From assembly GCA_021325035.1 (NCBI GenBank), contig JAJPHW010000064.1, positions 1-47,024 of the forward strand: a stretch of 47,024 bases of DNA. The letters are read 5' to 3'. The stretch is from Terriglobia bacterium. Its GTDB lineage: Bacteria; Acidobacteriota; Terriglobia; Terriglobales; Acidobacteriaceae. The stretch's first letter is position 1; every line of letters begins with the position of its first letter. Below the pieces are notes generated by a model. That model did not search any database, had not been told where the DNA came from, and saw only the letters and a program-made list of their open reading frames with translations. This document shows, piece by piece, positions 2,254-36,754 of the stretch. Made by a program: the position numbers and the translations under genes.

Positions 2254-2973
2254 ATGAAAAAAACAATTGTTTCGATTGCGATGGTGGTCATGCTTCTGTC
2301 ACTGCCGGGACTGGCTTGGCAAACGCAAGCCACGACGGAAGCGCCTTCGGCAACGCCGGCGACGCCTCCACCGACCACGAGTTCACCGAGTTTCTCCGAG
2401 CGCCACACGCGCTATAGACTGCAACCGAGCGACTCCATAGACGTATTGTTTGACTACACACCGGAGTTGAATCAGACAGTTTCCCTGCAACCGGACGGAT
2501 ACATCACGCTACGAAGCGTCGGAGATCTGAACGTGCGCGATCTCACCGTGGAACAGGCAACAGCGAAAATTGCCGACGCCTATTCCAAGATTCTTTCCAA
2601 ACCCAAGGTTTCTATTTCGCTGCGCGACTTCCAGAAGCCATACTTCATCGCGGACGGCCAAGTGCGGAGCCCCGGGAAGTATGAATTGCGCGGCGATACT
2701 ACTGTGGTTCAAGCGTTGGCGATGGCCGGCGGTTTTCAGAGTCAATATGCAAAACATTCGCAGGTCATACTTTATCGCCGGGTAAATGATACCTGGGCGG
2801 AAGCGCGTGTCGTCAATGTTAAGAAGATGCAGAGCGCACACGATCTTTCGGAGGACGTGATGCTGCAACCGGGGGATTTGATTTTCGTTCCCAAGAACGC
2901 GGCTTCGAAGATCCAGCAGTGGCTACCCATTTACAGTGTGAACGCGCTCGGCGCGCAGACCCGAACATTCTGA
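2254..2973 (+). CDS. Polysaccharide export protein (Wza/BexD family)
   Basis: 239 aa. The start is the ATG at 2254, with GGGAG 8 nt upstream and a good signal peptide directly after it (MKK, then a hydrophobic run ending L-P-G-L-A-W). A Pro/Thr-rich linker leads to a Poly_export domain at ~55-130 (Y-R-L-Q-P-S-D-S-I-D-V ... G-Y-I-T-L). One SLBB domain follows at ~135-215 (F-I-A-D-G-Q-V-R-S-P-G-K-Y, then L-Q-P-G-D-L-I-F-V-P). Family members form the outer-membrane or periplasmic part of the polysaccharide export channel. There is no lipobox Cys and only one SLBB repeat, so it is a short form. It is the first gene of the long block. Confidence 0.9.
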   Translation: MKKTIVSIAMVVMLLSLPGLAWQTQATTEAPSATPATPPPTTSSPSFSERHTRYRLQPSDSIDVLFDYTPELNQTVSLQPDGYITLRSVGDLNVRDLTVEQATAKIADAYSKILSKPKVSISLRDFQKPYFIADGQVRSPGKYELRGDTTVVQALAMAGGFQSQYAKHSQVILYRRVNDTWAEARVVNVKKMQSAHDLSEDVMLQPGDLIFVPKNAASKIQQWLPIYSVNALGAQTRTF

Positions 2974-2999
2974 GCTGAATCGCTTTAGGAGATTGCAAA

Positions 3000-4550
3000 A
3001 TGGAAAATCAAGAGTTAGTAGTCTATTCCGGCCAGCAGGGGATTTCGCTGACGGCGCGCGATTTAGCGGCAATGGGATTCCGCCATCGCAAAGCGGTGAT
3101 TATCTGCTTCTTTGCCGTGCTGCTGGGCACCGCACTGGTGGCGGCCATGCTGCCGTTGTATGAGTCGCACACAGAAATTCTGGTGCGCATGAACCGCGTA
3201 GACCCTGTAGTTACGGCTTCACCGGGCAACCCTGCCGTTTCGAATACGTACGTCACGGAAGAAATGATCAACTCCGAAGCTGAGTTGATTAAGAGCGACG
3301 ACGTCCTTCGCCAAGTCGTAATCGAAACTGGACTCGACAAGCACGAAATGTCTAAGTGGATCTTCTGGAAGCGCAAGCCGGAAGAAGCGGTGGCGAAAGC
3401 GCTTGGAAAACTAAAGGGCGGCCTCAGGGTTGATCCGTTGCCGAAAACCAACGTATTCAAAGTTGCTTACAGTTCGAGTGACCCAAAGCTGGCCGCGTAC
3501 GTTTTGACCACGCTGGACAATGTTTATCTGCAACACCACAAAGACGTAAACCATCCTGCTGGCGAATACGAGTTCTTCGATCAGCAAGTGCAGAAAGCAC
3601 AAGCAGAGTTAAACGATGCCGAAGGCAAATTGAAAGCGTTCCCCAAGAATAACGGCACGCCGAATTCAATGATGGCGCGTGACCTTGCCCTTCAAAAGGT
3701 TAATGACTTCAACTTCCAACTAGGCCAGACACGCACGGAAATTGCAGAAGCGCAGCGCCGCATTACCGCTCTGGAGCAACTTCAGAAAACCACCAATGCA
3801 CGCATGACGACGCAGGTACACAGCAATGACGATGCCGGCACAATTCAGCAGATGAAGAGCACGTTGCTCAACCTGCAATTGAAGCAAAGCGATCTTGCCT
3901 CCAAATATCAGCCAGATTATCCGCCGTTGGTGGAAGTGAACAAGGAAATTGCGGAAACTGAGGCTGCGCTGGCTGGTCAAAAGCCGTTGCAGGAAGTCAC
4001 AACCGACCAAAATCCGACTTATAACTGGATTGACGACGAACTGGCCAAGGACAAAACACAGGTGCAGGGCGCGCAATCAAAGGCCGCTGAACTGGAAGCG
4101 GTTATCAACCAGAATATGGACGCTATCCGCAAGCTGGAAACCGCTGGACTGGAAGAAAGCGATCTCGTCCGTAATGCAAAAGCAGCAGAAGCGAATTATT
4201 TGCTCTATCTGCAAAAACGCGAAGAAGCGCGCATCACCGAGGCATTGGATACAACGCAACTGGTAAACGTAGCCATTCAAGAAAAGCCGGCGGTCCCGGT
4301 TTATCCGGCACAGTCCCCCTGGCTCTTCGCATTGGTCGGGGTTCTGCTTGCCTTTACCGCTTGCGCCGGATTGATCTTCGTGATGGAGCGTATGGACGCT
4401 TCCTTCCGCACACCCGCGGAAATTGAGTCCATTCTCAACCTTCCCGTTCTGGCAGCGGTTCCAGCAACTGGCAATGGTTTTTCATTAAACGGCAATGGCT
4501 CATCTTCCAGGCATCTACCGGTGGATGTGCTACGCGAAACCCGTAGTTAA
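3000..4550 (+). CDS. Wzz/GumC-type chain-length determinant (polysaccharide co-polymerase)
   Basis: 516 aa, with AGGAG upstream of the ATG. A Wzz domain surrounds the first membrane helix (~35-55), followed by a long periplasmic region with coiled coils (~185-270 and ~340-400). A GNVR-like segment and a second membrane helix (~438-460) come after the typical proline-rich entry (V-P-V-Y-P-A-Q-S-P-W). It controls polysaccharide chain length and couples polymerase to exporter in the inner membrane. The cytosolic tail is short and has no kinase domain; the separate next gene supplies a kinase-like ATPase, as in two-component BY-kinase systems. Confidence 0.9.
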   Translation: MENQELVVYSGQQGISLTARDLAAMGFRHRKAVIICFFAVLLGTALVAAMLPLYESHTEILVRMNRVDPVVTASPGNPAVSNTYVTEEMINSEAELIKSDDVLRQVVIETGLDKHEMSKWIFWKRKPEEAVAKALGKLKGGLRVDPLPKTNVFKVAYSSSDPKLAAYVLTTLDNVYLQHHKDVNHPAGEYEFFDQQVQKAQAELNDAEGKLKAFPKNNGTPNSMMARDLALQKVNDFNFQLGQTRTEIAEAQRRITALEQLQKTTNARMTTQVHSNDDAGTIQQMKSTLLNLQLKQSDLASKYQPDYPPLVEVNKEIAETEAALAGQKPLQEVTTDQNPTYNWIDDELAKDKTQVQGAQSKAAELEAVINQNMDAIRKLETAGLEESDLVRNAKAAEANYLLYLQKREEARITEALDTTQLVNVAIQEKPAVPVYPAQSPWLFALVGVLLAFTACAGLIFVMERMDASFRTPAEIESILNLPVLAAVPATGNGFSLNGNGSSSRHLPVDVLRETRS

Positions 4551-4606: not shown

Positions 4607-5383
4607 ATGAGCAGAAATTTTGAATTGCTGCAAAAGGCAGCAGAAGAAGAACGAGAACGGCAACGCTTGGAACCCGCCGCGACTGGATCCGCGGCCGCCA
4701 CGACCGCATGGATTCCGCCAGCTGAAGGCACGGTTGAGAATGCCATCCTGCCTCAGGCTCTCGAAGGGCTCTCGCGTGAAGAACTGAACAAGCTGACGCA
4801 GCGCCTGTTCCAGCCCGATGGCGCTCGTGTGGTTGTCTTCACCAGCGTCGAGCGCGGCGCGGGATGCACCTGGCTGGCGGCACAAGTCGCCCAAACACTC
4901 GCGTCCCAAGGGCGAAACTCCGTCTGCGTCGTCGACGGCAACTTCCGTTCGCCGGCCCTGCACGAAGTCTTCTCGTTGAATAACCAACAGGGACTCTCGG
5001 ATGCGGTCCTCGATGGCGGGCGCACGCAGGACTATCTGCGGAATACCGCACAGCCCAACCTCTGGGTGCTCACCAACGGAACGCCGGAAAAGGCCGCCCT
5101 GGCAGTTTCCGCAACCCAGCCATTGCTCGAAAGCATTCAGCAACTGCGCGCGCAGTTTGAATATGTAATCGTTGATGCTGCGCCCATGAACCTGTTTAAC
5201 GACGCGCTCACTCTGGCCACGGCAGGCGACGGTATTGCTTTAGTCATCAAGGCCAACTCGTCGCGACGTGAAATTGCGCAGAAGATGTTGCAGGAAGCCA
5301 AAAGCGCCAATGTTCGCGTGCTCGGTGCAATTCTTAATCAACGGCAATTCCCGGTACCGGAGTCGGTTTATCGCAGGCTCTAA
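4607..5383 (+). CDS. BY-kinase/CapB-like ATPase with degenerate Walker A
   Basis: 258 aa. A charged N-terminal helix (M-S-R-N-F-E-L-L-Q-K-A) is followed by a CpsD/CapB-type P-loop domain from ~75. Walker A normally reads S-x-x-P-G-E-G-K-T. Here it is S-V-E-R-G-A-G-C-T, with Cys87 in place of the catalytic Lys. Walker A' (V-V-D-G-N-F-R-S-P) and Walker B (V-I-V-D-A-A-P) are recognisable. The C-terminus has one Tyr (E-S-V-Y-R-R-L) rather than the usual tyrosine cluster. It may therefore be a pseudokinase that modulates the adjacent Wzz-like protein through binding rather than phosphorylation (inference). Confidence 0.8.
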   Translation: MSRNFELLQKAAEEERERQRLEPAATGSAAATTAWIPPAEGTVENAILPQALEGLSREELNKLTQRLFQPDGARVVVFTSVERGAGCTWLAAQVAQTLASQGRNSVCVVDGNFRSPALHEVFSLNNQQGLSDAVLDGGRTQDYLRNTAQPNLWVLTNGTPEKAALAVSATQPLLESIQQLRAQFEYVIVDAAPMNLFNDALTLATAGDGIALVIKANSSRREIAQKMLQEAKSANVRVLGAILNQRQFPVPESVYRRL

Positions 5384-5444: not shown

Positions 5445-6887
5445 ATGGTTACGGCTCGACGGCAACTGCTGACAAGCGCGCTCAAGCTGTTCGATTTGCT
5501 GGTGATGGTTGCCTGCTTCGCGGCAGCAGCCTATGTGGAGATGCGTTATACCAAGTCTGCGCTCTCCTTCGAAGAGATGTTCTCCATGCGCGTCAAACTG
5601 GGGAACATTCTGCTGTTTGTCGTACTTCTACTGGTTTGGCACGCGATTTTTGGATTGTTCGGCATGTACGGTTCGCGACGCATGTCGCGCCGCCGTTACG
5701 ACATTATTGACATCACCAAAGCGACTTCTTCCGGGACAGTCTTCATTCTTCTTGCTTCCGTCGCTTTCGGCATAAAGATGGTCTCGCCGCTGTTTCTGGC
5801 GGTATTTTGGGTTTACACCACAAGTGTCACAATCTCGGTGCGCTTTGCTTTACGGGCAGCGCTGGGACGAGTCCGGGTTCACGGACACAATCTGCGGCAC
5901 ATGCTAATTGTGGGAACCAACCCCCGCGCACTCGAGTTTGCCAACCGAATTGCATGCAAACCGGGCCTGGGATATCACATTTTGGGTTTTGTGGACCGCG
6001 ACTGGCATGGACTGCCACAGTTCAAAGAAAGCGGTTTCGCTTTAGTGGCTAATCTCGAGAACCTTCCCGAATATTTGCGCCAGCATCCTGTGGATGAAGT
6101 CATCGTGACCCTGCCGCTGGCTTCACTCAATTTTCACAATTCGGATATTCGCGCAATTTGCGACGAGCAAGGCATCACCATTCGCGTCCTGAATGATTAT
6201 TTCGACATCAACGGACGGCGTGCCAAAGCTGAAGAAATCGAAGGCGCATCCCTGATGACGCACTATGCCGGCATGGCGGATGGCTGGCCGGTGTATGTCA
6301 AACGTCTTGTGGATGTGATCATTTCTTCCCTGGTTCTACTCATGCTGGCGCCCGCGCTGCTGATCGTGGCGCTGCTCATTAACCTCACCTCAAAAGGTCC
6401 TGTTTTTTTTGCGCAATATCGCATGGGCCTGAACAAACGCCGCTTCAAGATTTATAAATTTCGCACCATGGTTCCTGATGCGGAACAGAAAATGCGCGAG
6501 ATTGAGCATTTGAACGAAGTCTCCGGGCCAGTATTCAAAATCAAAAATGACCCGCGCATTACTCCATTGGGAAAATTCCTGCGTAAAACCAGCATTGACG
6601 AACTGCCGCAGTTGATCAACGTGTTGCGTGGCGATATGAGTCTCGTCGGGCCGCGCCCTCTGCCGGTTCGCGACTACGAAGGATTCGACAAAGACTGGCA
6701 ACGCCGCCGCTTCAGCGTTCGCCCTGGCATCACCTGCCTGTGGCAAATTGCCGGACGCAGTTCCATTCCATTCGAAAAATGGATGCAGATGGACCTGCAA
6801 TACATTGACAAGTGGTCGCTGCGGCTGGATTTTGAAATCCTGCTGCGTACCATCCCCGCCGTCATTCGCGGATCGGGAGCGGCTTAA
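5445..6887 (+). CDS. Polyprenyl-phosphate sugar-1-phosphate transferase (WbaP/CpsE type)
   Basis: 480 aa, ATG with AGGA 7 nt upstream. About four N-terminal membrane helices are followed by a CoA-binding-like Rossmann segment (~150-260: L-I-V-G-T-N-P-R-A-L-E-F) and the C-terminal bacterial sugar transferase domain (~285-480). Signature residues include K-R-L-V-D-V, K-F-R-T-M, D-E-L-P-Q-L-I-N-V-L-R-G-D-M-S-L-V-G-P-R-P and R-P-G-I-T-C-L-W-Q. It transfers hexose-1-phosphate to undecaprenyl phosphate in the inner membrane and starts each repeat unit. Its substrate, glucose or galactose, cannot be read from sequence. Confidence 0.93.
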   Translation: MVTARRQLLTSALKLFDLLVMVACFAAAAYVEMRYTKSALSFEEMFSMRVKLGNILLFVVLLLVWHAIFGLFGMYGSRRMSRRRYDIIDITKATSSGTVFILLASVAFGIKMVSPLFLAVFWVYTTSVTISVRFALRAALGRVRVHGHNLRHMLIVGTNPRALEFANRIACKPGLGYHILGFVDRDWHGLPQFKESGFALVANLENLPEYLRQHPVDEVIVTLPLASLNFHNSDIRAICDEQGITIRVLNDYFDINGRRAKAEEIEGASLMTHYAGMADGWPVYVKRLVDVIISSLVLLMLAPALLIVALLINLTSKGPVFFAQYRMGLNKRRFKIYKFRTMVPDAEQKMREIEHLNEVSGPVFKIKNDPRITPLGKFLRKTSIDELPQLINVLRGDMSLVGPRPLPVRDYEGFDKDWQRRRFSVRPGITCLWQIAGRSSIPFEKWMQMDLQYIDKWSLRLDFEILLRTIPAVIRGSGAA

Positions 6888-6945: not shown

Positions 6946-9639
6946 GTGAGTCAAATTTCCACAAGCCGAGTGCCAGAGCCGATCAACCATCCTGTTTCGG
7001 CGGAGCCTGGCGTGTCGGCGGCTGAACGGCAGCTCATTGAAAACTGGAACCAGACGCAGACAGCTTATCCTTCGTCGTCCTGTCTGCACGAACTTTTTGA
7101 AGAGCAAGCCAGATCAAATTCTGAAGCGATTGCAGTCGTTCTTGGTAATCAACAGCTCACCTATCGCGAACTAAATGAAAAAGCCAATCAACTGGCGCGC
7201 CATCTGCAAAAATTAGGTGTAGGAAAAAACATACCCGTTGCGATCGGCCTTGCATCATCCCCTGAATTTGCGATTTCTTTGCTGGCCGTATTGAAAGCAG
7301 GCGGCGCGTGCGTACCTCTCGATCCCAGCTATCCCCAGCCACGCTTGCAACTGATGCTTGAAGACGTAAAGGCTCCAGTCCTCCTCACAAAGCATGGACA
7401 GTTGCCGGACATCGCGCCGGCATCCACGCAAACGCTCGATTTCACTACTCTCTCTTCCCTGCTCTCTGCCTATGCCGTTGAAAATCTTCCGGCGACGGCC
7501 ACGCCTGACAGCGTGGCTTATATCATCTACACCTCTGGCTCAACGGGCACGCCCAAAGGCGTGCTGCTTGGGCATCGGGGTTTGGTGAATCACAGCGCGG
7601 CCTCATTGAGCTTGTATGGATTGAGTCCGCGCGACCGCGTTCTACAGTTTTCTTCCATCAGCTTCGACATTGCGATTGAAGAAATTTTTCCCACCTGGGC
7701 CGCTGGCGGCACTGTCGTTTTCAAAACGGAAGACTTTTCTCTCGGTTTTGCCGAATTCATGAGTTTTATCCAGAGGCAGGCTATCAGTGTTCTGGATTTG
7801 CCGACGGCTTACTGGCATGAGTGGACAAATTACCTTCACGAAAATCCGCGTCTGCCATTACCGGAGGCTTTGCGTTTAGTGATTGTCGGCGGGGAAAAAG
7901 TTTCAGTCGCCGGACTCACGCGTTGGCAGGAACGGGTGCGGGGGAAAATAAGCTGGGTAAATACTTACGGCCCCAGCGAAGCCAGCGTAATCGCAACCGC
8001 ATTTGCACCAGAAAATAGTGGATGCACATTGAACGCCGTTCCCATCGGGCGCCCGATTGCCAATACGCAAATTCATTTGCTGGATGCGAATTTGCAACAA
8101 GTTCCGATCGGCGCGCCGGGAGAGATTTTTATCGGCGGGGATGGTGTTGCGCTCGGCTATTTAAATCGTCCTGATCTGACTGCGGAAAAATTCGTGTCCG
8201 ATCCTTTTTGCTCGGGCGCCCGCTTGTATCGGACTGGCGACATGGCGCGCTATCGCAGCAATGGCGAAATCGAATTTCTCGGACGGCAGGATAATCAAGT
8301 TAAAATCCGCGGCTTCCGCGTGGAACCGGGCGAGATCGAAGAGGTATTGGGCCGCCATGAAAATATTCGCGAAGCTGCCGTAATCGCGCAGGAATCCAGC
8401 CCAGGGCAAAAGCGCCTGGTCGCGTATGTGGTTCTGTCGCGCTCGTTAGCGGGCGGCAGCGATGATCTACGGAATTATTTGAAAGACCGTTTGCCCGATT
8501 ACATGGTGCCTTGGGCGTTTATTACGCTTGATGCGATGCCCATGACTCCAAACGGCAAAATTGACCGCCGCGCTTTGTCGTTGCAGCAGCAGCCGCAGCC
8601 GGGTGTGCCGGCTATTAAGAACGACGGAAGTTTAACATCGAAGATTGCCACAATCTGGCAGGAATTGCTTGGCCGTCCTGTAGGCCTTCAAGATAATTTT
8701 TTTGAATTAGGCGGACATTCTTTATTGGCCGCACGGATGATGCATCGCCTTGGCCAGATTGTCGGGCGTCCACTTCCTTTGGCGATTTTGTTACAAGCTC
8801 CCACGATCGAACAGCTCAGCTCCGCGCTGGAAAATCCGGAGAACGGGCTTTCTCAATTTTGGTCTTCGATTGTTGCCATTCAGCCGCAAGGCGCGAACCC
8901 GCCATTTTTCTGTATCCACGGAGTTGGCGGAAATGTTGTGGGCTTTCGCGATCTTGGCCGACACATGGGGCCGACACATCCGTTCTATGGACTACAGGCT
9001 CGCGGATTAGATGGGACCCACCCGTGTCTGACGAGTGTGGAGGAAATGGCGGCGCAATATCTTCAGGATATTCGCAGTGTGCAGCCGCAAGACCCATATT
9101 TTATAGGCGGGTATTCTTTTGGCGGATTGGTCGCATACGAAATGGCGCGCCAACTCACCGCTCGTGGTGAGCAAGTTGCATTTCTAGCCCTGTTCGACAC
9201 ATCGCCGGGAAATGTAAAGCCGCAAACTGCATCGTTGCTGAAGTCATTCGCCAGGCCCACTCCGAAGTTTTTGTTTTCAGACTTGCCCCGTGGCCTCTAC
9301 AAAGGCGTACGACGGCGCGTGCGCGCGTTGCGCGTTCCCCGCTCTTTGAAAAACGTATTCTTTGCCAATACTCGTGCCGCCGAGCAATATGCGCTGAAGC
9401 CCTACGACGGAAAGATCACATTGTTCCGCGCTACAGAGAAATCGCTGCGCGCCGCCAGCAATCCGTATGCCGCGTGGAAGAATCTTGCCCTGGGTGGTCT
9501 CGAATTTCAGGATATTTCCGGCGACCACTACGGGGTGCTCGTCGAGCCCCAGGTGGCCACCTTCGCCGAACGCCTCAAAGGCTGCATTGACGAAGCGGCC
9601 CGCACAAGCCGTTCTTATGTTGAACAGGCCGTCAGCTAG
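6946..9639 (+). CDS. Free-standing A-T-TE nonribosomal peptide synthetase module
   Basis: About 897 aa from GTG 6946; GTG 7012 with GGAG at 7002-7005 is an equally good start. The frame stays open further upstream inside the preceding gene, which I do not count. Order is adenylation (~25-555), carrier (F-F-E-L-G-G-H-S, Ser592) and thioesterase (~625-890: G-Y-S-F-G-G, Ser724; G-D-H-Y near the end). Core A motifs are intact: Y-T-S-G-S-T-G-T-P-K-G, Y-G-P-S-E, Y-R-T-G-D, N-G-K-I-D. There is no condensation domain. Pocket residues aligned by eye to GrsA PheA read D-I-E-D-I-G-T-V-I-K. The acidic pair at positions 239/278 recalls some lysine-type codes, so a basic amino acid is possible. It may load and release or transfer a single amino acid. 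Confidence 0.88.
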   Translation: MSQISTSRVPEPINHPVSAEPGVSAAERQLIENWNQTQTAYPSSSCLHELFEEQARSNSEAIAVVLGNQQLTYRELNEKANQLARHLQKLGVGKNIPVAIGLASSPEFAISLLAVLKAGGACVPLDPSYPQPRLQLMLEDVKAPVLLTKHGQLPDIAPASTQTLDFTTLSSLLSAYAVENLPATATPDSVAYIIYTSGSTGTPKGVLLGHRGLVNHSAASLSLYGLSPRDRVLQFSSISFDIAIEEIFPTWAAGGTVVFKTEDFSLGFAEFMSFIQRQAISVLDLPTAYWHEWTNYLHENPRLPLPEALRLVIVGGEKVSVAGLTRWQERVRGKISWVNTYGPSEASVIATAFAPENSGCTLNAVPIGRPIANTQIHLLDANLQQVPIGAPGEIFIGGDGVALGYLNRPDLTAEKFVSDPFCSGARLYRTGDMARYRSNGEIEFLGRQDNQVKIRGFRVEPGEIEEVLGRHENIREAAVIAQESSPGQKRLVAYVVLSRSLAGGSDDLRNYLKDRLPDYMVPWAFITLDAMPMTPNGKIDRRALSLQQQPQPGVPAIKNDGSLTSKIATIWQELLGRPVGLQDNFFELGGHSLLAARMMHRLGQIVGRPLPLAILLQAPTIEQLSSALENPENGLSQFWSSIVAIQPQGANPPFFCIHGVGGNVVGFRDLGRHMGPTHPFYGLQARGLDGTHPCLTSVEEMAAQYLQDIRSVQPQDPYFIGGYSFGGLVAYEMARQLTARGEQVAFLALFDTSPGNVKPQTASLLKSFARPTPKFLFSDLPRGLYKGVRRRVRALRVPRSLKNVFFANTRAAEQYALKPYDGKITLFRATEKSLRAASNPYAAWKNLALGGLEFQDISGDHYGVLVEPQVATFAERLKGCIDEAARTSRSYVEQAVS

Positions 9640-11142: not shown

Positions 11143-11173
11143 CTTATTGTATTTACGTTGACGAACGAGGAGC

Positions 11174-11177
11174 GGAG
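11174..11177 (+). promoter_or_regulatory. RBS fixing the sulfotransferase start
   Basis: GGAG lies 7 nt before ATG 11185. This favours that start over the upstream in-frame TTG at 11158. Confidence 0.65.
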
Positions 11178-28544: not shown

Positions 28545-30296
28545 ATGAACATTCTCGCACTCTCCTCATTCAAGCTGAACCCCGCCGCTGTGTTACTCGC
28601 CGACGGCAAGGTGAAGGCTGGCATCGAAGATCAGAAATTGTTGCGCTCGCGCACTCGCGGCATGCCGATCACCGCCATTGAGAATTGTTTGGAGAGCTCT
28701 CATTTGAGTTGGACGGATTTGGACTGCATCGCCGTGGCCAGCAAACCATTGCAAGGCTGGCGGCGGCGTTCGTGGACTCGCGCCAAGCAATCCGCATTTT
28801 CGTTGCTGGCCAATGCTTATTACGAAGCCGATGATAGCGGTGTCGCAGCTCAGCAACTCAATCACATTCGCCGCTTACGCAAACGAGTCAGCAGCGCCGA
28901 TAAAGTAATTACGCTCGATCATCATCTTTGCCATGCTTCTTCGGCGTTCTATTGCTCTCCTTACGAAAAAGCTCTGATTCTCACTCTGGATGAAGAAGGC
29001 GATGGCCGTTCTGGAACTTTATCTGTTGGCGATGGCAATAAGATTCGCGTGCTCGAAACTATCGCCTTCCCGAACTCCATCGGTTGGGTCTATACGCTGG
29101 TCACGGATTTGATCGGCTTCCGCCCGCACGAAGAAGAACACAAAACCCAGTGGTTGAGTCTTGAAGGCGAGCCTGAACACAAAGGTATTTTCTTGAAGTT
29201 GTTGCGCAGCTCAGACGGCGTCATGCCCAGCCTCGACTTCAGCTTCTTCACTCGTGGGCTGGCCGGCGGCCTGCCGTTTTCAGCGAAATTCTATAAACAG
29301 CTGGGCCTGCCCACCGCACCGGAAGAGATTACGCAAGACCAAAAGAAAGCGATCGCGGCCAGCTTGCAAGCCGCGGTCACGGAAATCATCGCAGACTTGG
29401 TCACTTCTTTCGCAAAGCGCGAAGGACTGAAGAATATCTGCCTCGGCGGCGGCATCTTTCAGAACGCGCTTCTCGTTGCCGATCTGGAAAAGCGCTTGAA
29501 CAATTTTTCTGTGTTTGTACCGCCCGCTCCCGGCAATACGGGCACTGCGTTAGGGGCGGCCTTATGGGTGTGGCATGAAAAAGGCAATCCGCGAGCGGAT
29601 ATCGCCAGCCATGTCTTTTGGGGCCCAAGCTTCCGCAGTCAGGACATCAAAGATGTTCTCGACAACTGCAAGGCCCGCTACGCCATCAGCGTTACCGATG
29701 AACGCAAGCTCGAAACCACGGTACATCTGCTCACCTCCGGCAAAATTGTGGGATGGTATCAGGGAGCAACTGAGTTCGGCCCGCGCGCGCTCGGTAATCG
29801 CAGCGTTCTTGCTTCCCCATGGGGAGGCTACGTAAAAGAGAACCTCAACGATTACATCAAGCACCGCGAGTGGTTCCGCCCCTTTGCGTTAGCGGTGCCG
29901 GAAGAAGATTGCGCAAAATATTTCCAAGCATCCACGCTTTGTGAACACATGAATTCTCTCGGGTGGGAGCACCCAGACAACAAAGTTCTTCCGGAAGGGC
30001 TCGCATTCGCAGGAGGGCGTGTTCGTCTGCAAATCGTAAAACAGGCGAGCAATCCTCTGTTCTGGCGTCTGCTCAAGCAATTCGGCGAACATGCACCAGC
30101 GCCGATTCTGGTAAATACCTCATTCAATCTCTTCGGAGAACCTCTTGTGGTGAATCCGCGCGATGCCGTGCGTAGTTATTTCTGTTCCGGCCTCGATGCC
30201 ATGGTCATTGGCAATTTCGTCCTGGCCAAAGCCGGATTATCGCAACTGCAAACCAAGCCGGGCACGATTTCATCCCGTTCTCCGGTCAATGCCTGA
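28545..30296 (+). CDS. NodU/CmcH-family O-carbamoyltransferase
   Basis: 583 aa, 8 bp after sulfotransferase 2. The N-terminal Kae1-like domain has D-H-H-L-C-H-A-S-S-A-F (metal/substrate His cluster) and L-D-E-E-G-D-G. Further on come C-L-G-G-G-I-F-Q-N and, in the C-terminal domain, Y-Q-G-A-T-E-F-G-P-R-A-L-G-N-R-S. These enzymes use carbamoyl phosphate and ATP to carbamoylate a hydroxyl of a sugar (NodU), antibiotic (CmcH) or polyketide (TobZ). Here a sugar of the repeat unit or the peptide product could be the acceptor; the locus does not decide between them. Confidence 0.92.
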   Translation: MNILALSSFKLNPAAVLLADGKVKAGIEDQKLLRSRTRGMPITAIENCLESSHLSWTDLDCIAVASKPLQGWRRRSWTRAKQSAFSLLANAYYEADDSGVAAQQLNHIRRLRKRVSSADKVITLDHHLCHASSAFYCSPYEKALILTLDEEGDGRSGTLSVGDGNKIRVLETIAFPNSIGWVYTLVTDLIGFRPHEEEHKTQWLSLEGEPEHKGIFLKLLRSSDGVMPSLDFSFFTRGLAGGLPFSAKFYKQLGLPTAPEEITQDQKKAIAASLQAAVTEIIADLVTSFAKREGLKNICLGGGIFQNALLVADLEKRLNNFSVFVPPAPGNTGTALGAALWVWHEKGNPRADIASHVFWGPSFRSQDIKDVLDNCKARYAISVTDERKLETTVHLLTSGKIVGWYQGATEFGPRALGNRSVLASPWGGYVKENLNDYIKHREWFRPFALAVPEEDCAKYFQASTLCEHMNSLGWEHPDNKVLPEGLAFAGGRVRLQIVKQASNPLFWRLLKQFGEHAPAPILVNTSFNLFGEPLVVNPRDAVRSYFCSGLDAMVIGNFVLAKAGLSQLQTKPGTISSRSPVNA

Positions 30297-30305
30297 CTCT
30301 AGATA

Positions 30306-31448
30306 ATGATTGCCACCGCCAAACCCTCTGCGCAGAAGCCGGCCCCCGTCTCGCGATGCCGCGTCCGTGAAGCGGCTTTTGCCGACTACGCGCAAATTGC
30401 CGTGCTGGAATCACGCTATGGCATGTTGCCCAAACCTTACGAAGCATGGACCCATCTTTGGGAAGGCAACCCTACGTATCGCACGCTCGCTAAGTGGAGC
30501 ATCGGTTGGGTGGTCGAAAATCCCGCGGGAGATATTGTCGGGCACATTGCGAATATCCCATCCCATGTTGAGTTCAAGGGACGCCACCTGCTCGCCGCCA
30601 GCGGCAGCGGTCTCGTGGTGGACGAACATTACCGCAGCTACGCCTTTCCGCTTTTCAGCCAGTTCTTCAACCAATCTGGCGCGGACATCATTCTGAATAC
30701 ATCCGTCAATGCCAATGGAATGAACCTGCACCAGCTTTTTCATTTTGCGCGCGTGCCTTCCGGCGCATGGAACCGCGCGGTTTTCTGGATTACTGATTAC
30801 ACGAATTTCGCCTCACGCATGTTGCAGCAAAAAGATTGGCCCGGATTGTTGAGTTACCCGGCTGCAGCAGCCTTGGCAGTGAAAGACGTTTTTCGTCCCA
30901 GTTTAGAGACGACGTTACCGGAAGGGCTGAAAATCAATATCTGCAATCAGTTTGACGAGAAATTCGACGACTTCTGGCGCACCCTGAGTAATCATTCTTC
31001 CACCCTGCTCAGTGTGCGGTCGCGTGAGACGTTGAATTGGCACTTTCAATTTCCTCTGTCGCAAGGAACAGCCTGGGTAGCCACAATCACCCAAGGTTCG
31101 ACCCTGCTCGCCTATGCCGTCTTTCTACGCCAGGACAACAACGAAGTCGGACTTCAACGCATGCGCCTCGTGGATTTCCAGTCCCTCGATGGCAACGCTG
31201 AACATCTGGTTCCCATGCTGGCAGTAGCGCTGCAAAAGTGCCGCGAGCAAAAAATTCACATGCTGGAAGCCATCGGCTTCGCCCCCGACAAGCAGCGTGT
31301 ACTGACCCGTATCGCGCCCCACCAGCGGGAGTTACCCTGCTGGCTCTACTTCTACAAAGTCAAAAATAAAGACAAGCAGTTGGCGGAAGAGCTAAAAGAT
31401 CCATCTGCCTGGGACCCCACCGCCTTCGACGGCGACGGCAGCCTCTAG
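30306..31448 (+). CDS. GNAT-like acyltransferase, acceptor unknown
   Basis: 380 aa, 9 bp after the carbamoyltransferase. The N-terminal half resembles a GNAT fold (V-R-E-A-A-F-A-D-Y-A-Q-I ... D-I-V-G-H-I-A-N-I-P ... G-S-G-L-V-V-D-E-H-Y-R-S), with the acyl-CoA motif in an atypical form. The second half (~200-345) may be a second GNAT-like lobe, as in Fem/double-GNAT proteins. It has no signal peptide and is probably cytosolic. N-acylation of an amino sugar or of the peptide amine is a reasonable guess; a FemAB-like aminoacyl transfer is the alternative. Confidence 0.65.
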   Translation: MIATAKPSAQKPAPVSRCRVREAAFADYAQIAVLESRYGMLPKPYEAWTHLWEGNPTYRTLAKWSIGWVVENPAGDIVGHIANIPSHVEFKGRHLLAASGSGLVVDEHYRSYAFPLFSQFFNQSGADIILNTSVNANGMNLHQLFHFARVPSGAWNRAVFWITDYTNFASRMLQQKDWPGLLSYPAAAALAVKDVFRPSLETTLPEGLKINICNQFDEKFDDFWRTLSNHSSTLLSVRSRETLNWHFQFPLSQGTAWVATITQGSTLLAYAVFLRQDNNEVGLQRMRLVDFQSLDGNAEHLVPMLAVALQKCREQKIHMLEAIGFAPDKQRVLTRIAPHQRELPCWLYFYKVKNKDKQLAEELKDPSAWDPTAFDGDGSL

Positions 31449-31467: not shown

Positions 31468-33435
31468 ATGTGCGGCATAGCAGGGATGATCGGATTGCGT
31501 GGAGCTAACTCCAGCCCCGACCTCCTCAAGAAAATGTCGGAAACGCTCACGCATCGCGGCCCGGATGCTTTCGGTCTCCATCTCGACCGTGAAGCTGGAT
31601 TGGCGCACTCCCGCCTGAGCATTCTCGATCTGGCCGGTGGCGCGCAGCCGATGTCAAATGCCGACGGTTCACTCTGGATCACCTACAACGGTGAAATTTT
31701 CAACTACCTCGAACTGCGTGAAGAACTCATCGCCAAAGGCCATCAATTCGCCACACGCTCCGACACAGAAGTCATTCTTCATCTCTATGCCCGCGAGGGC
31801 GAAGAGTGCGTCAGCAAACTCAATGGGCAATGGGCATTCGCCATCTGGGATGCTCGCAACCGCAAGCTTTTTGCTTCCCGCGATCGCATGGGTATCCAGC
31901 CGTTTTTCTATACGGTCGCGGATCAGACATTTCTCTTTGCTTCGGAAATCAAGGCTCTCTTTGCCCATCCAGCCGTCAGCCGTGAGCTCGACCTCAAAGC
32001 GCTCGATCAGATTTTCACCTTCTGGGTCACGCTTCCTCCGCGCACCAGCTTTCATGATGTGCAGCAGCTTCCTCCCGGCCACAATCTAACGGTTCAGGAT
32101 GGCAAAATTCGGATTCGCGAATACTGGAGCATGAATTTTTCGGAAATCGATCCCGTGGAATCAAACGACGCATGGGATGATGCAATCGTCCAGCGCAAAT
32201 CCGAAGAACTGCTCTCGCTTCTCTGTGATGCCACGCGTATTCGCCTGCGAGCTGATATTCCCGTCGGCGCTTATCTAAGCGGCGGACTCGACTCCAGCTT
32301 AGTTGCCGCTCTCACCCAGCGGGTCGCCAAAGATCGCCTGCGCACTTTTTCCGTTGCCTTTGAAGACTCCGCGCTCGATGAAAGCAGTCACCAAAGAATC
32401 GTCAGCGAACATCTCGGCACCGCGCATACCGAAATTCGTTGCTCGAACGATGACATCGGCGAAGTCTTTCCTGAAGTCGTTTGGCACGCAGAGCAACCTG
32501 TTTTACGTACAGCCCCCGCTCCGCTATTTCTCTTATCCAAGCTCGTACATGACAGCGGGTACAAAGTCGTACTCACCGGCGAGGGCGCCGACGAAGTCCT
32601 TGGTGGCTATGACATTTTCAAGGAAGCCAAGATTCGCCGTTTTTGGGCGCAGCAGCCAGAATCACGCCTGCGTCCATCGCTTCTGCGGCGGCTGTATCCG
32701 TACATGGAGAATATCCAGAAGCAGCCAGCAGCTTATCTCGCTAGTTTCTTCCGCGTCGCCGGGCAGGATATTGCCAGTCCCTTCTTTTCTCACCTGCCGC
32801 GCTGGCAGTTGACCGCCAAACTAAAGTCGTTGTACTCGCGCGAAGTCAAAAGCAATCTGGCAAATTACGATGCGTGCACGGAGTTGCAGGAAGCCCTCCC
32901 CGAAGCCTACTACCGCTGGCCCAGCTTCGCTCAGGCGCAATATTTAGAGGGGAAATACCTGCTCCCCGGCTACATCCTTTCTGCTCAAGCAGACCGGATG
33001 GCCATGTCCCATTCGGTCGAGGCCCGCTATCCGTTTCTCGACCACCGCGTGGTAGAATTCTGCCAGAAATTGCCACCCACGCTGAAAATGCGTGTCTTGG
33101 CGGAGAAATTTTTGCTAAAGCAAGCCGCAAAAAATCTGCTGCCAGATTCGATTCTTCAGCGACCGAAGCAGCCTTATCGCGCTCCGGATGGGGCCAGTTT
33201 TGCAACGCCCAACTCCCCTGGGTATGTTGCCGATGTGCTCGCGCAGGAAAGTATTGTGCGCGATGGAATTTTTGATCCCTCCCCAGTTCGCAATCTTGCG
33301 GAAAAGTTCCGCAGTGGAAACGCTACAACAATGAGCGTGAAGGACAATATGGCCATGGTGGGAGTGATTTCAACGCAACTGCTGATGCAGCAGTTCGTGA
33401 CCCCTCACCAGCCAACTACTTATGCCATCCATTGA
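31468..33435 (+). CDS. Asparagine synthase-like glutamine amidotransferase
   Basis: 655 aa. The N-terminal class II glutaminase domain begins directly at catalytic Cys2 (M-C-G-I-A-G), with R-G-P-D, S-R-L-S-I-L-D-L and Y-N-G-E-I-F-N-Y. The C-terminal ATP-pyrophosphatase domain has Y-L-S-G-G-L-D-S-S and G-E-G-A-D-E-V-L-G-G-Y. It would release ammonia from glutamine and form an amide via an acyl-adenylate. It overlaps the ACP gene by 14 nt, a strong hint that the acyl or aminoacyl substrate is on that carrier and that this is a pathway amidotransferase, not housekeeping AsnB (inference). Similar amidotransferases occur in exosortase-linked EPS loci. Confidence 0.9.
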   Translation: MCGIAGMIGLRGANSSPDLLKKMSETLTHRGPDAFGLHLDREAGLAHSRLSILDLAGGAQPMSNADGSLWITYNGEIFNYLELREELIAKGHQFATRSDTEVILHLYAREGEECVSKLNGQWAFAIWDARNRKLFASRDRMGIQPFFYTVADQTFLFASEIKALFAHPAVSRELDLKALDQIFTFWVTLPPRTSFHDVQQLPPGHNLTVQDGKIRIREYWSMNFSEIDPVESNDAWDDAIVQRKSEELLSLLCDATRIRLRADIPVGAYLSGGLDSSLVAALTQRVAKDRLRTFSVAFEDSALDESSHQRIVSEHLGTAHTEIRCSNDDIGEVFPEVVWHAEQPVLRTAPAPLFLLSKLVHDSGYKVVLTGEGADEVLGGYDIFKEAKIRRFWAQQPESRLRPSLLRRLYPYMENIQKQPAAYLASFFRVAGQDIASPFFSHLPRWQLTAKLKSLYSREVKSNLANYDACTELQEALPEAYYRWPSFAQAQYLEGKYLLPGYILSAQADRMAMSHSVEARYPFLDHRVVEFCQKLPPTLKMRVLAEKFLLKQAAKNLLPDSILQRPKQPYRAPDGASFATPNSPGYVADVLAQESIVRDGIFDPSPVRNLAEKFRSGNATTMSVKDNMAMVGVISTQLLMQQFVTPHQPTTYAIH

Positions 33436-33697
33436 GCAGGAGATACGCAGCTTCATCGTCGGCCACTTCCTGCTAGGCGATGAATCGAGTTTAAAAAACG
33501 ACGATTCCTTTCTCGAAAAAGGGACCTTCGATTCCACAGGGATTCTGGAACTGGTCTCGTTCCTCGAGCAGAAATACAGCATCGAACTGGAGCCCGATGA
33601 GCTGATTCCTGAAAACCTCGATTCGGTGAACTGCCTCGTCCAGTTTTTGCAGCGTAAAGTTCCATCCTTAAACGCGGTAGCCCAAGTACAAACTTAG
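33422..33697 (+). CDS. Acyl carrier protein
   Basis: 91 aa, overlapping the amidotransferase stop by 14 nt. It is a four-helix carrier with phosphopantetheine site F-D-S-T-G-I-L-E-L-V (Ser38) and the second-half motif E-L-E-P-D-E-L-I-P-E-N-L-D-S-V. The acidic composition is typical. It is flanked by an amidotransferase, a NadE-like ATP pyrophosphatase and an AMP ligase, which likely load and modify its cargo. It is separate from the three carrier domains inside the NRPS proteins. No phosphopantetheinyl transferase gene is in the window. Confidence 0.9.
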   Translation: MPSIEQEIRSFIVGHFLLGDESSLKNDDSFLEKGTFDSTGILELVSFLEQKYSIELEPDELIPENLDSVNCLVQFLQRKVPSLNAVAQVQT

Positions 33698-33706: not shown

Positions 33707-34699
33707 ATGCAGCCGACCCTGGCCATTTCAAAAGACACTCTTCGTATTGACGCCGCTGCGGAAGTTGCGCACATCACGGCCGCCATCCGCGAAACCGTCG
33801 TCCACCAGCTTCACCGCAAAGGTGCGGTCGTCGGAGTTTCCGGTGGAATTGACAGTTCAGTCGTGGCATTTCTCTGCGCTCGTGCACTGGGCAAAGAACG
33901 CGTGCAGATTCTCTTTACACCTGAATCCGATTCTTCTTCCGACAGTTTGCGCTTGGGCCGCATGGTCGCCGACGCCCTCGGAGCCGATTCTCAACTGGAA
34001 GACATCGCCCCGATTCTGAAGGCAGCGGGATGCTACGAACGGCGCGATGCTGCCATTCGCCGCGTGGTGCCCGAATACGGCCCGGGATGGAAAAGCAAAA
34101 TCGTCCTCCCCGATCTGCTGACTTCCGGGCAGTATCCTATTTTTTCAGTCGTAGTGCAGTCACCTTCGGGAGAACGCAAGCAGATACGCCTCACCGCCGA
34201 AGCCTATCTCGGAATTCTCGCTGCCACCAATCTCAAGCAGCGCACGCGCAAGCTGATCGAATACTATTACGCGGATTTAAAGCATTATGCCGTCGCTGGC
34301 ACACCCAACCGTCTCGAATACGACCAGGGCTTCTTTGTGAAATATGGAGACGGTGCAGCCGACTTCAAACCGATTGCGCATCTTTACAAGTCGCAGGTGT
34401 TCCAGCTCGCAGCCTATCTCGGCGTCCCCAGAGAAATCCAGGAGCGGACTCCTACGACGGATACATACTCGCTGGAGCAAACCCAGGAAGAGTTCTACTT
34501 CTCGCTGCCGCTCGAAAAAATGGATTTGTGCCTCTACGGCAAAAATAATGCCATTCCCGCGGCGGCCCTTGCTCCCGCCGTCGGCATTCCAGAGGCGCAG
34601 GTCGAACGCATGTACAGCATGATCGAATCCAAGCGCAATGCCACCCGCTATCTGCATCTCGCGCCTGTATTGATGTCGCCCGTTCCTGAAATCGAATAG
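33707..34699 (+). CDS. NadE-like ATP pyrophosphatase (NAD synthase family) in biosynthetic context
   Basis: 330 aa against ~270 for simple ammonia-dependent NadE. The PP-loop is V-S-G-G-I-D-S-S and the conserved K-Y-G-D-G-A-A-D-F-K-P-I-A-H-L-Y-K-S-Q-V segment is NadE-like. There is no glutaminase domain, so ammonia would come from elsewhere, plausibly the adjacent amidotransferase. An extra ~50 residues (~120-170) sit in the middle. NAD synthase activity is possible, but its place between an ACP and an AMP ligase argues for a specialised amide or amidine-forming role in this pathway (inference). Confidence 0.8.
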   Translation: MQPTLAISKDTLRIDAAAEVAHITAAIRETVVHQLHRKGAVVGVSGGIDSSVVAFLCARALGKERVQILFTPESDSSSDSLRLGRMVADALGADSQLEDIAPILKAAGCYERRDAAIRRVVPEYGPGWKSKIVLPDLLTSGQYPIFSVVVQSPSGERKQIRLTAEAYLGILAATNLKQRTRKLIEYYYADLKHYAVAGTPNRLEYDQGFFVKYGDGAADFKPIAHLYKSQVFQLAAYLGVPREIQERTPTTDTYSLEQTQEEFYFSLPLEKMDLCLYGKNNAIPAAALAPAVGIPEAQVERMYSMIESKRNATRYLHLAPVLMSPVPEIE

Positions 34700-34713: not shown

Positions 34714-36276
34714 GTGGTCAGTGTTCTTACACAATCCGCCGCAGCCGCGTCCCCGCGTTCGCATGCTGCCAACGTAGCTGATTTCCTGCTCGCGGGAAAA
34801 GATCCCGCGCGAACTGCACTGCTCACGTTGCAGGAATCGTTCACTTACGGCCAACTGCAATCGGCGGTGGCAGCCATCGCAGAATTCTTGCGGGCCAATG
34901 GCGGCGCCAAAGGAGATCGTGTTCTCCTTCTAGCTGACAACTCTTTTTTCTGGATCGTGTCCTATCTCGGAACTCTTCGCGCCGGACTCGTTGCAGTGCC
35001 TCTTCCAACCACCATCGAACCGGAGAACCTGGGGCACATTGTTCAACTTGCGGAACCGCGATTTGCATTTTTGCAAGAGAAGTCTGCGGCCTTTGCACAG
35101 CAGCTTTCGAATGTCTTAATCGTCAGCGACGCAAAGAAATCTTTGACGCCCGGTTTGGTCAATTTCCATACGCTGCTCGATCATGACGCGATAAGTTTTG
35201 CTGATGGCAGCCGCTTGCCGGAAGCCAGCGCAGCCGACCTCGCCGCTCTCATGTTTACGTCCGGTTCTACCGGCAAGCCCCGCGGTGTCATGATTTCGCA
35301 TGGCAACATCATCGCCAACACCAAGTCCATCATTCCCTGTTTGAATCTGACGGCGAAAGACCGCGTCATGGCGGTGCTTCCCTTCTATTACTGCTTCGGC
35401 GCTTCCCTGCTTCACACTCATTTGCGCGTGGGCGCAAGCGTGGTAACCGATTCGCGCTTCATGTACCCGGACAAAGTTTTGCAACGTATGGTCGAAACCG
35501 AGTGCACCGGCTTTGCCGGCGTGCCCAGCCATTTCCAGATTCTGCTGCGCAAATCCAGCCTTCCCCGCATGACTTTTCCCCATCTTCGCTACGTGCAACA
35601 GGCTGGCGGGCATCTGGCCCCGGTTTTTGTTCGGGAACTGGCAAAGACCCTTCCCGATGTAGAAATTTTCCTCATGTACGGTCAGACAGAAGCAACAGCC
35701 CGCCTCACCTGTCTTTCTCCGGATCTCGTAACCGAAAGACCAAATTCCATCGGCAAGGCCATTCCCGGGGTAAAAATTCGCGTCGTGAACGAAGCTGGCT
35801 ATGACGTTCCGCTTGGCGAATCCGGCGAGATCGTTGCTGAAGGAAGTAACGTCGCGCTTGGCTACTGGCATGATCGCGAGGCCACGGCCACGACTTTCCG
35901 CAATAAGGTCCTCCATACCGGTGACATCGCAACCATCGATAAAGATGGCTTTCTATATCTTCTCGACCGCACCCGCGATTTTGTAAAGTGCGGCGGCGAA
36001 CGCGTCAGTTGTCAGGCCCTGGAAGAACAGTTGCTCGAATTTGACGGATTGCTCGAAGCCGCAGTCATCGGCATTCCCGATGAAGTGCTTGGCGAAGCCA
36101 TTCAAGCCTTCGTCGTTCCCCGCGATTTTCAGTCCACAGATTTTGAAGATCAGTTGCGTCAATTCTGCAAATTGAATATTCCGTTGAAGTTGAATCCTAA
36201 AGTTTTTGTGAAGTTGCAGTCTCTTCCCAAAAACAGCGCAGGCAAAGTGCTCAAGCCGGCTTTGCGCAAGATGTAG
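34714..36276 (+). CDS. AMP-dependent acyl-CoA/ACP ligase
   Basis: 520 aa from GTG 34714, with no clear SD. ANL-superfamily motifs: M-F-T-S-G-S-T-G-K-P-R-G, Y-G-Q-T-E-A-T-A-R-L, H-T-G-D-I-A, D-R-T-R-D-F-V-K-C-G-G-E-R-V-S and the catalytic Lys in N-S-A-G-K-V-L-K. It lacks a carrier domain and sits apart from the NRPS A domains in sequence style, closer to fatty-acid or aryl acid ligases. It would activate a carboxylic acid as adenylate and pass it to the ACP at 33422-33697. The substrate is unknown. A comparable ligase is part of exosortase-A EPS loci. Confidence 0.9.
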   Translation: MVSVLTQSAAAASPRSHAANVADFLLAGKDPARTALLTLQESFTYGQLQSAVAAIAEFLRANGGAKGDRVLLLADNSFFWIVSYLGTLRAGLVAVPLPTTIEPENLGHIVQLAEPRFAFLQEKSAAFAQQLSNVLIVSDAKKSLTPGLVNFHTLLDHDAISFADGSRLPEASAADLAALMFTSGSTGKPRGVMISHGNIIANTKSIIPCLNLTAKDRVMAVLPFYYCFGASLLHTHLRVGASVVTDSRFMYPDKVLQRMVETECTGFAGVPSHFQILLRKSSLPRMTFPHLRYVQQAGGHLAPVFVRELAKTLPDVEIFLMYGQTEATARLTCLSPDLVTERPNSIGKAIPGVKIRVVNEAGYDVPLGESGEIVAEGSNVALGYWHDREATATTFRNKVLHTGDIATIDKDGFLYLLDRTRDFVKCGGERVSCQALEEQLLEFDGLLEAAVIGIPDEVLGEAIQAFVVPRDFQSTDFEDQLRQFCKLNIPLKLNPKVFVKLQSLPKNSAGKVLKPALRKM

Positions 36277-36379
36277 CTGGCTGGGATTGTCGCGTATCAA
36301 ATCAACATGCAAGCAAGAGCAGCGTAAGCCCCGTTCCCCTTTTTCGCTTAGCGGGCTCAGCATAGATCGGTGAACCATT

Positions 36380-36754
36380 GTGCCCTTAACCACTTCTTCT
36401 CCTGAAACCGTATTCTCGGCATCCAATGCCGACTACTTGATGCCACGGCCGGAGCGCCGCAAGTACCGGCGCTTTCCGTTGCGGCAATCTGCCACTATTC
36501 GCTATAAGAATGCCCTTTCGCCCGATATTCAGGCGTTTACGGTCAATGCCAGCGTGAACAGCGTATATCTCACGTCGGAAGTCGCCATGGCGGAGGGTCG
36601 CGCCGTCCACGTCGCCATATCACTCAAAAAAGACGGTACGGAAACCGTTCGTCTCTATGGCACGGGCACAATCGTGCGTACCGAAACTTTGCCCACCGGA
36701 CGATTTGGAATGGCCATCGCTTTCGAAAAGCCGCTGACTTCGGCAGCCGCCTAA
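36380..36754 (+). CDS. PilZ-domain protein, c-di-GMP motif partly degenerate
   Basis: 124 aa from GTG 36380; ATG 36440 is a shorter option. The PilZ R-x-x-x-R motif appears in R-R-K-Y-R-R-F-P-L. The second motif, normally D/N-x-S-x-x-G, reads N-A-S-V-N-S, so the final Gly is Ser. The rest fits a small beta-barrel (G-T-G-T-I-V-R-T ... G-R-F-G-M-A-I-A-F). PilZ proteins bind c-di-GMP and often control polysaccharide synthesis or export. Its position as the last gene before the strong terminator suggests post-translational control of the locus; weak or lost nucleotide binding is possible. Confidence 0.78.
   Translation: MPLTTSSPETVFSASNADYLMPRPERRKYRRFPLRQSATIRYKNALSPDIQAFTVNASVNSVYLTSEVAMAEGRAVHVAISLKKDGTETVRLYGTGTIVRTETLPTGRFGMAIAFEKPLTSAAA

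Follow-up and report, generated by a model that had tools for sequence, protein, structure and literature searches.

Polysaccharide and nonribosomal peptide synthetase (NRPS) pathways are usually handled as separate topics, and each of the described systems closest to the locus reported here shares a part of it. Wzx/Wzy-dependent exopolysaccharide (EPS) pathways have the same core in one block, consisting of Wza, Wzz, WbaP/WcaJ, Wzx and Wzy. The Dlt system, in which the ligase DltA and the carrier DltC lead to transfer onto teichoic acid, shares the logic of adenylation, loading of a carrier protein and aminoacyl transfer to a glycopolymer. In NRPS antibiotics of the novobiocin, nikkomycin and skyllamycin types, a stand-alone adenylation-carrier (A-T) protein and a cytochrome P450 make beta-hydroxyamino-acid units. 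We analyzed one entire contig of 47,024 bp (JAJPHW010000064.1, our G000:C212; hereafter the window) from a Terriglobia bacterium of the Acidobacteriaceae, whose genome of 3.9 Mb is in 232 contigs (GCA_021325035.1). In contrast to known Wzx/Wzy-dependent pathways, its EPS operon has NRPS modules and a carrier-type acyl cassette embedded in it; unlike Dlt, the locus has NRPS modules, a P450 and a condensation (C) domain; and its A-T/P450 pair, presumably acting on a carrier-bound amino acid as in the antibiotic pathways, is placed in an EPS operon. We suggest, with a probability of roughly 0.55, that the polymer of this EPS pathway is decorated with amino-acid units which an accessory NRPS module makes in carrier-bound form. 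No described EPS-NRPS locus of this kind was found in the open-access literature, most subscription papers being outside the scope of that search.

Interleaving of exopolysaccharide and peptide synthetase genes

The arrangement of the locus and its recurrence in relatives suggest that the EPS and NRPS genes work together. Twenty-four genes form one co-directional row at 2236-36276 on the plus strand, the strand of every gene of the block and of the hairpin described below, with intergenic gaps of at most 122 bp (the start of the first NRPS gene being set at 6946). Consecutive genes overlap by 4 nt at 13397, 24421 and 27433 and by 14 nt at 33422. Genes for an A-T-thioesterase (A-T-TE) protein, an A-T protein, a P450 and a C-A-T-TE protein sit between EPS genes, and genes for an asparagine-synthase-type amidotransferase (AsnB), an acyl carrier protein (ACP), a NadE-like enzyme and an AMP-dependent ligase stand at the 3' end of the row. 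A preliminary description of this DNA had listed the same genes, block and overlaps; Pfam and NCBIfam agree with the list, and Wzx was recognized by its fold.

The EPS genes supply the core parts of a Wzx/Wzy-dependent pathway: an initiating transferase, Wza and Wzz, a MOP-fold flippase and Wzy. The row begins with a Wza-type polysaccharide export protein (2236..2973; PF02563 63.5 bits, cut-off 28; SLBB domain; the start may be the ATG at 2254), followed by a Wzz-type chain-length protein (3000..4550; PF02706 27.7 bits, cut-off 25.5; TIGR03007 below cut-off) and a tyrosine autokinase-like partner of Wzz, which is without a Pfam match and scores 100.8 bits with TIGR01007, below the cut-off of 108.05 (4607..5383). 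The initiating sugar-phosphate transferase is of the WbaP/WcaJ type (5445..6887; PF02397; TIGR03025 417.6 bits, cut-off 295.55). The Wzx-type MOP flippase (9655..11142) has no Pfam or NCBIfam match; its AlphaFold2 model (confidence score pLDDT 82) has MATE, MurJ and WzxE structures among its best matches. The predicted MOP fold fits a flippase but also a MATE exporter, and the structure matches do not separate the two. The polymerase belongs to the Wzy/O-antigen-ligase family, which also holds ligases (22889..24424; PF04932, Wzy_C, 65.3 bits, cut-off 31.7). An XrtA/PEP-CTERM system was considered and rejected, as TIGR03098, TIGR03108 and TIGR03027 are below cut-off and the block has no exosortase match. 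Two exosortase matches lie elsewhere in the genome.

The comparison of gene order in related Acidobacteriota that the preliminary description had proposed finds EPS and NRPS genes co-occurring and interleaved. The interleaving (INTERLEAVING) recurs in other genera, which makes it more than chance, and the carriers of the same locus are named Acidobacteriaceae, Terriglobia, Acidobacteria or Candidatus Sulfotelmatobacter. In two genomes (G044 and G076) the order is wza-wzz-kinase-wbaP-[A-T-TE]-wzx-sulfotransferase-(wzy-like)-GT4-deacetylase-[A-T]-P450-[C-A-T-TE], followed by a relative of the putative acyltransferase gene at 30306 and a sulfotransferase; the corresponding end of the G044 locus holds a luciferase-like monooxygenase and another ligase. 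A second, rearranged layout is found in five genomes (G006, G010, G376, G389 and G448), where the P450 is fused to the C-A-T-TE or A-T-TE protein and a ligase lies upstream; in G448 wzx and the GT4 gene are apart from the rest of the locus. In a further genome (G072) wbaP and the A-T-TE gene share a 4.6-kb contig. The A-T-TE protein has a match (E 1e-180) in eight of 344 genomes of the class, five at 50% identity or more and the other three at 41-43%, and in all five of the former a wzx match starts at most 260 bases away.

A scan of named genomes with the P450 gave 80 loci, in 63 of which the P450 match exceeded 55% identity and 330 residues. A locus counted as EPS-linked if its flanks, which reach up to 10 kb and less where the contig is short, contained two or more same-strand EPS orthologues, each with no less than 35% identity and 120 bits. 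By these thresholds 16 of the 63 loci lie inside an EPS locus; two others (L284 and L285) hold EPS genes, have a partial P450 and are outside the 16. The A-T-TE gene is immediately 5' of wzx in 15 of the 16, and in the remaining one (L256) a 230-aa frame lies between them. In a P450 tree of 64 rows the EPS label changes three times, against 15.2 in shuffles, none of 500 being as low. One starred clade contains 14 of the EPS-linked rows plus L260, which is on a 3.4-kb contig; the window, L222 and L226 fall elsewhere, and the place of the window is not resolved. The P450 may have joined EPS loci twice.

The sister loci probably load a proline-derived acid on a carrier, because the best structure matches of their ligase and dehydrogenase are of the prolyl type. 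Except for L222 and L226, each of the 16 EPS loci encodes a ligase with the pocket DLFYLALVCK (14 loci). For the copy in L231 the best stand-alone PDB match, ranked behind multimodule LgrA chains, is 6o6e, an L-proline carrier ligase. The best PDB match of a 380-aa dehydrogenase of G006, the only such enzyme tested, is the prolyl-ACP dehydrogenase 4irn (1.1e-140). These loci thus resemble systems with proline-derived carrier-bound acids, and the prolyl-type genes are not seen in the window. Two other observations concern related loci. A glycosyl hydrolase family 10 protein is encoded within the EPS-NRPS locus of G006 (L067, 8562-9788). In G337 a non-orthologous EPS locus with Wza, Wzc and WbaP types (L159) is followed directly by A-T, P450, C and A-T-TE genes, a possible independent recruitment.

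Domains, pockets and thioesterases of the peptide synthetase genes

The adenylation pockets of the EPS-linked NRPS proteins are nearly invariant. The A, T, C and TE domains, recognized with Pfam, are all present, and the carrier and condensation motifs are intact (GGHS and HHIIFDG). Pocket residues were read with GrsA numbering on a GrsA fragment. The A-T protein (14331..16196) has the pocket DAWFLGNVVK, which we take to be a leucine code. It is found exactly in 48 domains of the named genomes, 15 of which are in the window or EPS-linked; the A-T protein of L264 reads EAWFLGNVVK, and the A-T gene of L222 is split in two frames. The adjoining P450 (16227..17489; PF00067) has as its top PDB match 3ejb, a biotin biosynthesis P450-like enzyme.

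The A-T-TE protein is a single module without a C domain (6946..9639, start uncertain). Its pocket, DIEDIGTVIK, belongs to a type, DIE[DN]IGTVIK, that is found in 16 domains, namely in the window, in 14 of the 16 EPS loci and in L284, which also has EPS genes. Variants are DIEDIGTICK (G044 and G076), DIESVGTVIK (G448), DIESAGTVIK (G439) and DAEDVGSICK (G072). The acidic residues in the pocket suggest that the substrate is probably a basic amino acid. D-alanylation of the Dlt kind was rejected for this protein, which scores 254.7 (TIGR01734) and 269.7 bits with DltA models having cut-offs of 559.85 and 476; the A-T and C-A-T-TE proteins are also below cut-off.

The C-A-T-TE protein (17502..21551) has the pocket DSA[C/L]IAEVWK, where position 278 is C in one alignment and L in others; neither form could be assigned to an amino acid. 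DSAL[IV]AEVWK is found in 12 domains, nine of them from the window and EPS loci and three from two Thermogemmatispora loci (L242 and L247). In the latter loci the C-A-T proteins, whose pocket is that of the EPS-linked C-A-T-TE, accompany a leucine-type A-T protein and a P450. DILQLGx[IV]WK is the pocket of twelve other C-A-T-TE domains, all from loci that are not EPS-linked. The C domain of the window is the sole match in the whole genome.

The two types of thioesterase differ at the Ser of their motif. The A-T-TE type has Ser (GYSFGG in the window) in 15 of 15 copies, while in the C-A-T-TE type Cys replaces Ser (GLCVNG). The replacement is seen in all seven copies that are readable in the window and EPS loci and, among freestanding ones, in 18 of 19 readable copies. 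These counts leave out L241, L242 and L282, in which the motif did not align.

The window proteins scanned include no match to MbtH or to a phosphopantetheinyl transferase, as had been noted from the sequence, and a search of the window's own genome for MbtH gave no match (0/1). A phosphopantetheinyl transferase would nevertheless be available to the NRPS proteins, because two ACPS-family matches over cut-off are found elsewhere in the genome. One of them is in a 267-aa open frame, a length that presumably fits the Sfp type.

The putative acyltransferase, the amide cassette and other genes

The gene at 30306..31448 encodes a putative acyltransferase of 380 residues with a predicted tandem-GNAT, N-myristoyltransferase-like fold. 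Neither Pfam nor NCBIfam has a family that matches the protein at E 0.001 (best Pfam 0.094), and a PDB search with its sequence gave one match, at E 0.84. The N-myristoyltransferase model is absent from the Pfam matches up to E 5 for five family members, a range in which HMMER filters drop most matches above about 0.1. An AlphaFold2 model built from five sequences (pLDDT 72, predicted template modeling score 0.70) is a tandem GNAT whose best full-length fold matches are N-myristoyltransferases (1nmt, Z 20.6, root-mean-square deviation 4.9, 318 residues, 9-12% identity); a mycobacterial tandem GNAT also matches (Z 18.8). N-myristoyltransferase itself is built of two GNAT domains, and its C-terminal carboxylate serves as the catalytic base (PMC7048800). 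The 30306 model shares this fold over nearly its full length, and the protein has a position-fixed C-terminus; unlike N-myristoyltransferase it has no match to that family, and it probably uses a carrier-bound acyl group. The 16 members of at least 33% identity with their end in view all terminate at one and the same position, following W-x-P-[STC]-x-[FY]-[DE]-[GS]-[DN]-x-[STG]-[LI]; two others are cut. Among eight distant members (26-31%), W-D-F-x-x-F-[DE]-x-[YF] is the ending of five, two extend two residues further and one ends otherwise. The C-terminus is a candidate carboxylate base, yet it is modeled with low confidence.

The neighbors of this gene point to carrier-bound substrates. The gene is found in 23 genomes, and neighbors within four genes on either strand were tallied for 18 loci fetched with the protein (L319 was left out). 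Ten of the 18 have carrier, adenylation, C or P450 genes near it. At 33% identity or more the figure is eight of 11, two of them through P450-like fragments of only 64 residues. Four loci (G122, G427, L238 and L259) have a consecutive row of a glycosyltransferase-like gene (25-28% identity to the GT4 protein of the window), an A-T gene, a P450 gene and a 30306-type gene. L238 ends within the last of these, and L259, from a planctomycete, continues with WbaP- and kinase-type genes. This row is the strongest hint that a carrier-bound hydroxyleucyl group may pass to a sugar. A second copy of the family (43% identity) lies elsewhere in the genome of the window (G000:C146:33069-34163), with no carrier genes in the 17 kb read.

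The amide-forming genes at the 3' end are a separate unit. They encode AsnB (31468..33435; TIGR01536 over cut-off), an ACP (33422..33697; PF00550 21.1 bits, cut-off 20.8), the NadE-like ATP-dependent amidating enzyme (33707..34699; PF02540 and NF002048 over cut-off) and an AMP-dependent acyl ligase (34714..36276; PF00501). The NadE-like gene is found in nine of 150 genomes including the window's own. The eight others all have AsnB in its vicinity (56-61% identity) as well as an adjacent or nearby AMP ligase, which is 56-57% identical in three genomes and 33-34% in five; in G135 the ligase and NadE form one frame. An ACP gene was recognized in four of them (G017, G010, G135 and G117), with the reservation that short frames may have been overlooked. 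None of the eight has NRPS genes of the window kind within the 13-55 kb read around the NadE-like gene, and on this ground the cassette was rejected as a part of the NRPS core. In G010 and G076 the cassette and the NRPS-EPS locus are on separate contigs, and among the loci read the two are joined only in the window. In PDB searches the ligase of the window matched malonyl-CoA, oxalate and similar ligases, and its NadE-like protein matched NH3-dependent NAD synthetases; neither result fixes a substrate.

Several other genes of the block are predicted to build or decorate the glycan. They encode sulfotransferases (11158..12069, PF00685; 27433..28536, PF13469), a GT4 glycosyltransferase (12159..13400; PF00534), a polysaccharide deacetylase (13397..14257; PF01522), two SGNH/GDSL-like proteins (21638..22861, PF13472 35.3 bits, cut-off 32.9; 26399..27436, PF13472), a WecG/TagA/CpsF glycosyltransferase (24421..25251; PF03808), an NAD-dependent sugar epimerase/dehydratase (25281..26276; PF01370) and a carbamoyltransferase (28545..30296; PF16861 and PF02543).

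Downstream of the ligase a PilZ-like gene (36380-36754; 20.2 bits, below the cut-off of 22.5) hints at control of EPS by cyclic di-GMP. Past the block are two co-directional genes (36963-40113); the same proteins of relatives match both, and the pair recurs near EPS loci. The second gene has sub-threshold glycosidase-like matches, and its listed frame overlaps the first gene and a hairpin, so that its start is unsure. This hairpin (38613-38636; 10 pairs, 8 G-C), 3' of an Ig-domain gene, is terminator-like. A strong terminator had been described as closing the block; the strong terminator-like hairpin lies 1.9 kb beyond the claimed end at 36754. Terminator-like sites in the window are not above the number in shuffled sequence (25 versus 24.6 and 29 versus 26.1).

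Proposed pathway and alternatives

From the gene content, gene order, conservation, pocket residues and predicted folds we infer the chemistry, the order of its steps and covalent attachment to the glycan. The A-T protein would load leucine, as judged from its pocket code, on its own carrier domain, and the adjoining P450 would hydroxylate the carrier-bound leucine, probably at the beta carbon as the A-T/P450 pairing suggests. The C-A-T-TE protein would link the hydroxyleucyl group to a second residue and pass it on via the Cys thioesterase, and the A-T-TE protein would activate a third amino acid, probably basic, which its Ser thioesterase would transfer or release. The deacetylase may expose a sugar amine, to which the tandem-GNAT protein would move the acyl group from the carrier. 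Wzx would flip the decorated repeat unit, Wzy polymerize it and Wza/Wzz export it; sulfate, carbamoyl and perhaps acetyl groups would also be added, and the AsnB-ACP-NadE-ligase cassette may provide a further, independent carrier-bound acyl amide. Joining of peptide and glycan is favored over co-export alone, because of the transferase-like gene at 30306 and because no other transporter family is matched in the block. The earlier proposal of one pathway making a polysaccharide with a nonribosomal amide thus gains support from the conserved interleaving and the pocket residues, while the amide cassette falls outside the conserved core.

A number of observations weigh against decoration of the polymer by the NRPS module. 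EPS loci without NRPS genes are common. The wzx gene was matched in 33 of 399 genomes of the class, 21 of which were mapped, the 12 weaker matches lying outside the maps. NRPS genes are present in the maps of the window, G006, G010, G376, G389 and G448, and absent from 14 of the other 15, one of which is just 3.8 kb and another of which (G416) has two weak ligase-like matches; the fifteenth (G439) has the A-T-TE gene alone. Similarly, a full-length Wzz match of at least 41% identity is found in eight family members besides the window among 150 relatives searched (G054, with a partial 46% match at a contig end, was left out). Four of them carry NRPS genes in the locus (G044, G076, G006 and G010) and four do not: G053 lacks them, and G085, G036 and G041 have no C-A-T-TE-type match at E 1e-60 (G036 being 53% complete). 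The preliminary description had said that homologous EPS loci routinely lacking the NRPS genes, with no effect on glycan composition, would speak against one pathway, and the first half of this is what is seen. Invariable pairing of EPS with NRPS genes was accordingly rejected; because EPS orthologues without NRPS genes are common, the NRPS genes are an accessory, optional module on a more widespread EPS scaffold. In addition, the 16 EPS-linked loci are not independent events, because a single clade holds 14 of their P450s. EPS-linked and freestanding sets have the leucine pocket and the Cys thioesterase in common, and the amino acids are assigned from pocket codes. Confidence in the GNAT model is moderate, its last five residues being below 50. 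Three loci with a 30306-type gene of at least 33% identity are without carrier-type neighbors (G178:C20, among EPS-type genes; G133; and the second copy in the window's genome), and below 33% such neighbors occur in just two of seven loci. Finally, the five genomes with the rearranged layout are not among the 23 with a 30306-type gene; another transfer route would be needed there, which the proposed pathway leaves unexplained.

In one alternative explanation the NRPS genes would make a free small peptide (a signal, siderophore or antibiotic) whose only tie to the polysaccharide is joint regulation and release. Outside EPS loci the A-T, P450 and C-A-T-TE set occurs in many phyla, freestanding clusters being found in Acidobacteriota, Rokubacteria, Rhodospirillales, Caulobacter and others, so that the set can act where no polysaccharide is made. 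A product could be released by either of the two TE-bearing proteins, and the 30306-type gene is not found in the genomes of the G006 type. We consider a free peptide unlikely but deserving of serious attention, given that the Wzx-type flippase is the only transporter recognized in the block, by its fold (family scans gave no ABC, MFS or MATE match there), that the interleaved rather than flanking arrangement has been retained, and that the second-residue pockets of EPS-linked C-A-T-TE proteins are unlike most freestanding ones, those of Thermogemmatispora excepted. A small lipid-linked or released glycopeptide, with Wzx and Wzy handling an oligosaccharide with a peptide cap, would fit the presence of an initiating transferase and just two further recognized glycosyltransferases, which suggest a short repeat, as well as the ligases in the Wzy_C family. 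It is improbable in view of the retention of Wza, Wzz and the kinase, the usual polymer export set, in each of the seven NRPS-bearing loci whose maps cover that end (G044, G076, G006, G010, G376, G389 and G448).

Adjacency of unrelated gene sets by chance, or by cargo transfer into an EPS locus, without joint function would account for the EPS orthologues without NRPS genes and for the frequency of NRPS genes in relatives (57 of 150 match the C-A-T-TE query at E 1e-60). The recurrence in several genera, the near-invariant pockets, the adjacency of A-T-TE and wzx, and the A-T/P450 pair in non-orthologous EPS contexts such as L259 and G337 make it very improbable. A further explanation, which is compatible with the others, is that the 30306 transferase serves the amide cassette (31468-36276) and the NRPS unit exits via the thioesterases. 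The transferase gene is directly 5' of the cassette in the window, and weak relatives (E 7.8e-8 to 7.3e-5) immediately precede AsnB in G120 and G117 and lie in its vicinity in G076. The closest relatives, however, follow C-A-T-TE (G044 and G076) or a P450 (L259), with no cassette in the stretch read, and a role confined to the cassette appears doubtful.

Overall the comparison is most consistent with an accessory NRPS module that decorates the EPS. A more specific proposal, which is tentative and somewhat less likely than not to hold in full, is that the product is a peptido-exopolysaccharide, a secreted polymer with a short beta-hydroxyleucine-containing nonribosomal peptide on its repeat unit. 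A new myristoyltransferase-like family that uses carrier-bound acyl groups would attach the peptide, and the members of a group of soil Acidobacteriota would swap the acyl modules. Acidobacteriota are abundant soil bacteria. If the proposal is true, these organisms would have a new class of surface glycoconjugate, a function would be suggested for a transferase family without a Pfam model, and the decoration of the polymer would be partly readable from the pockets of adenylation domains.

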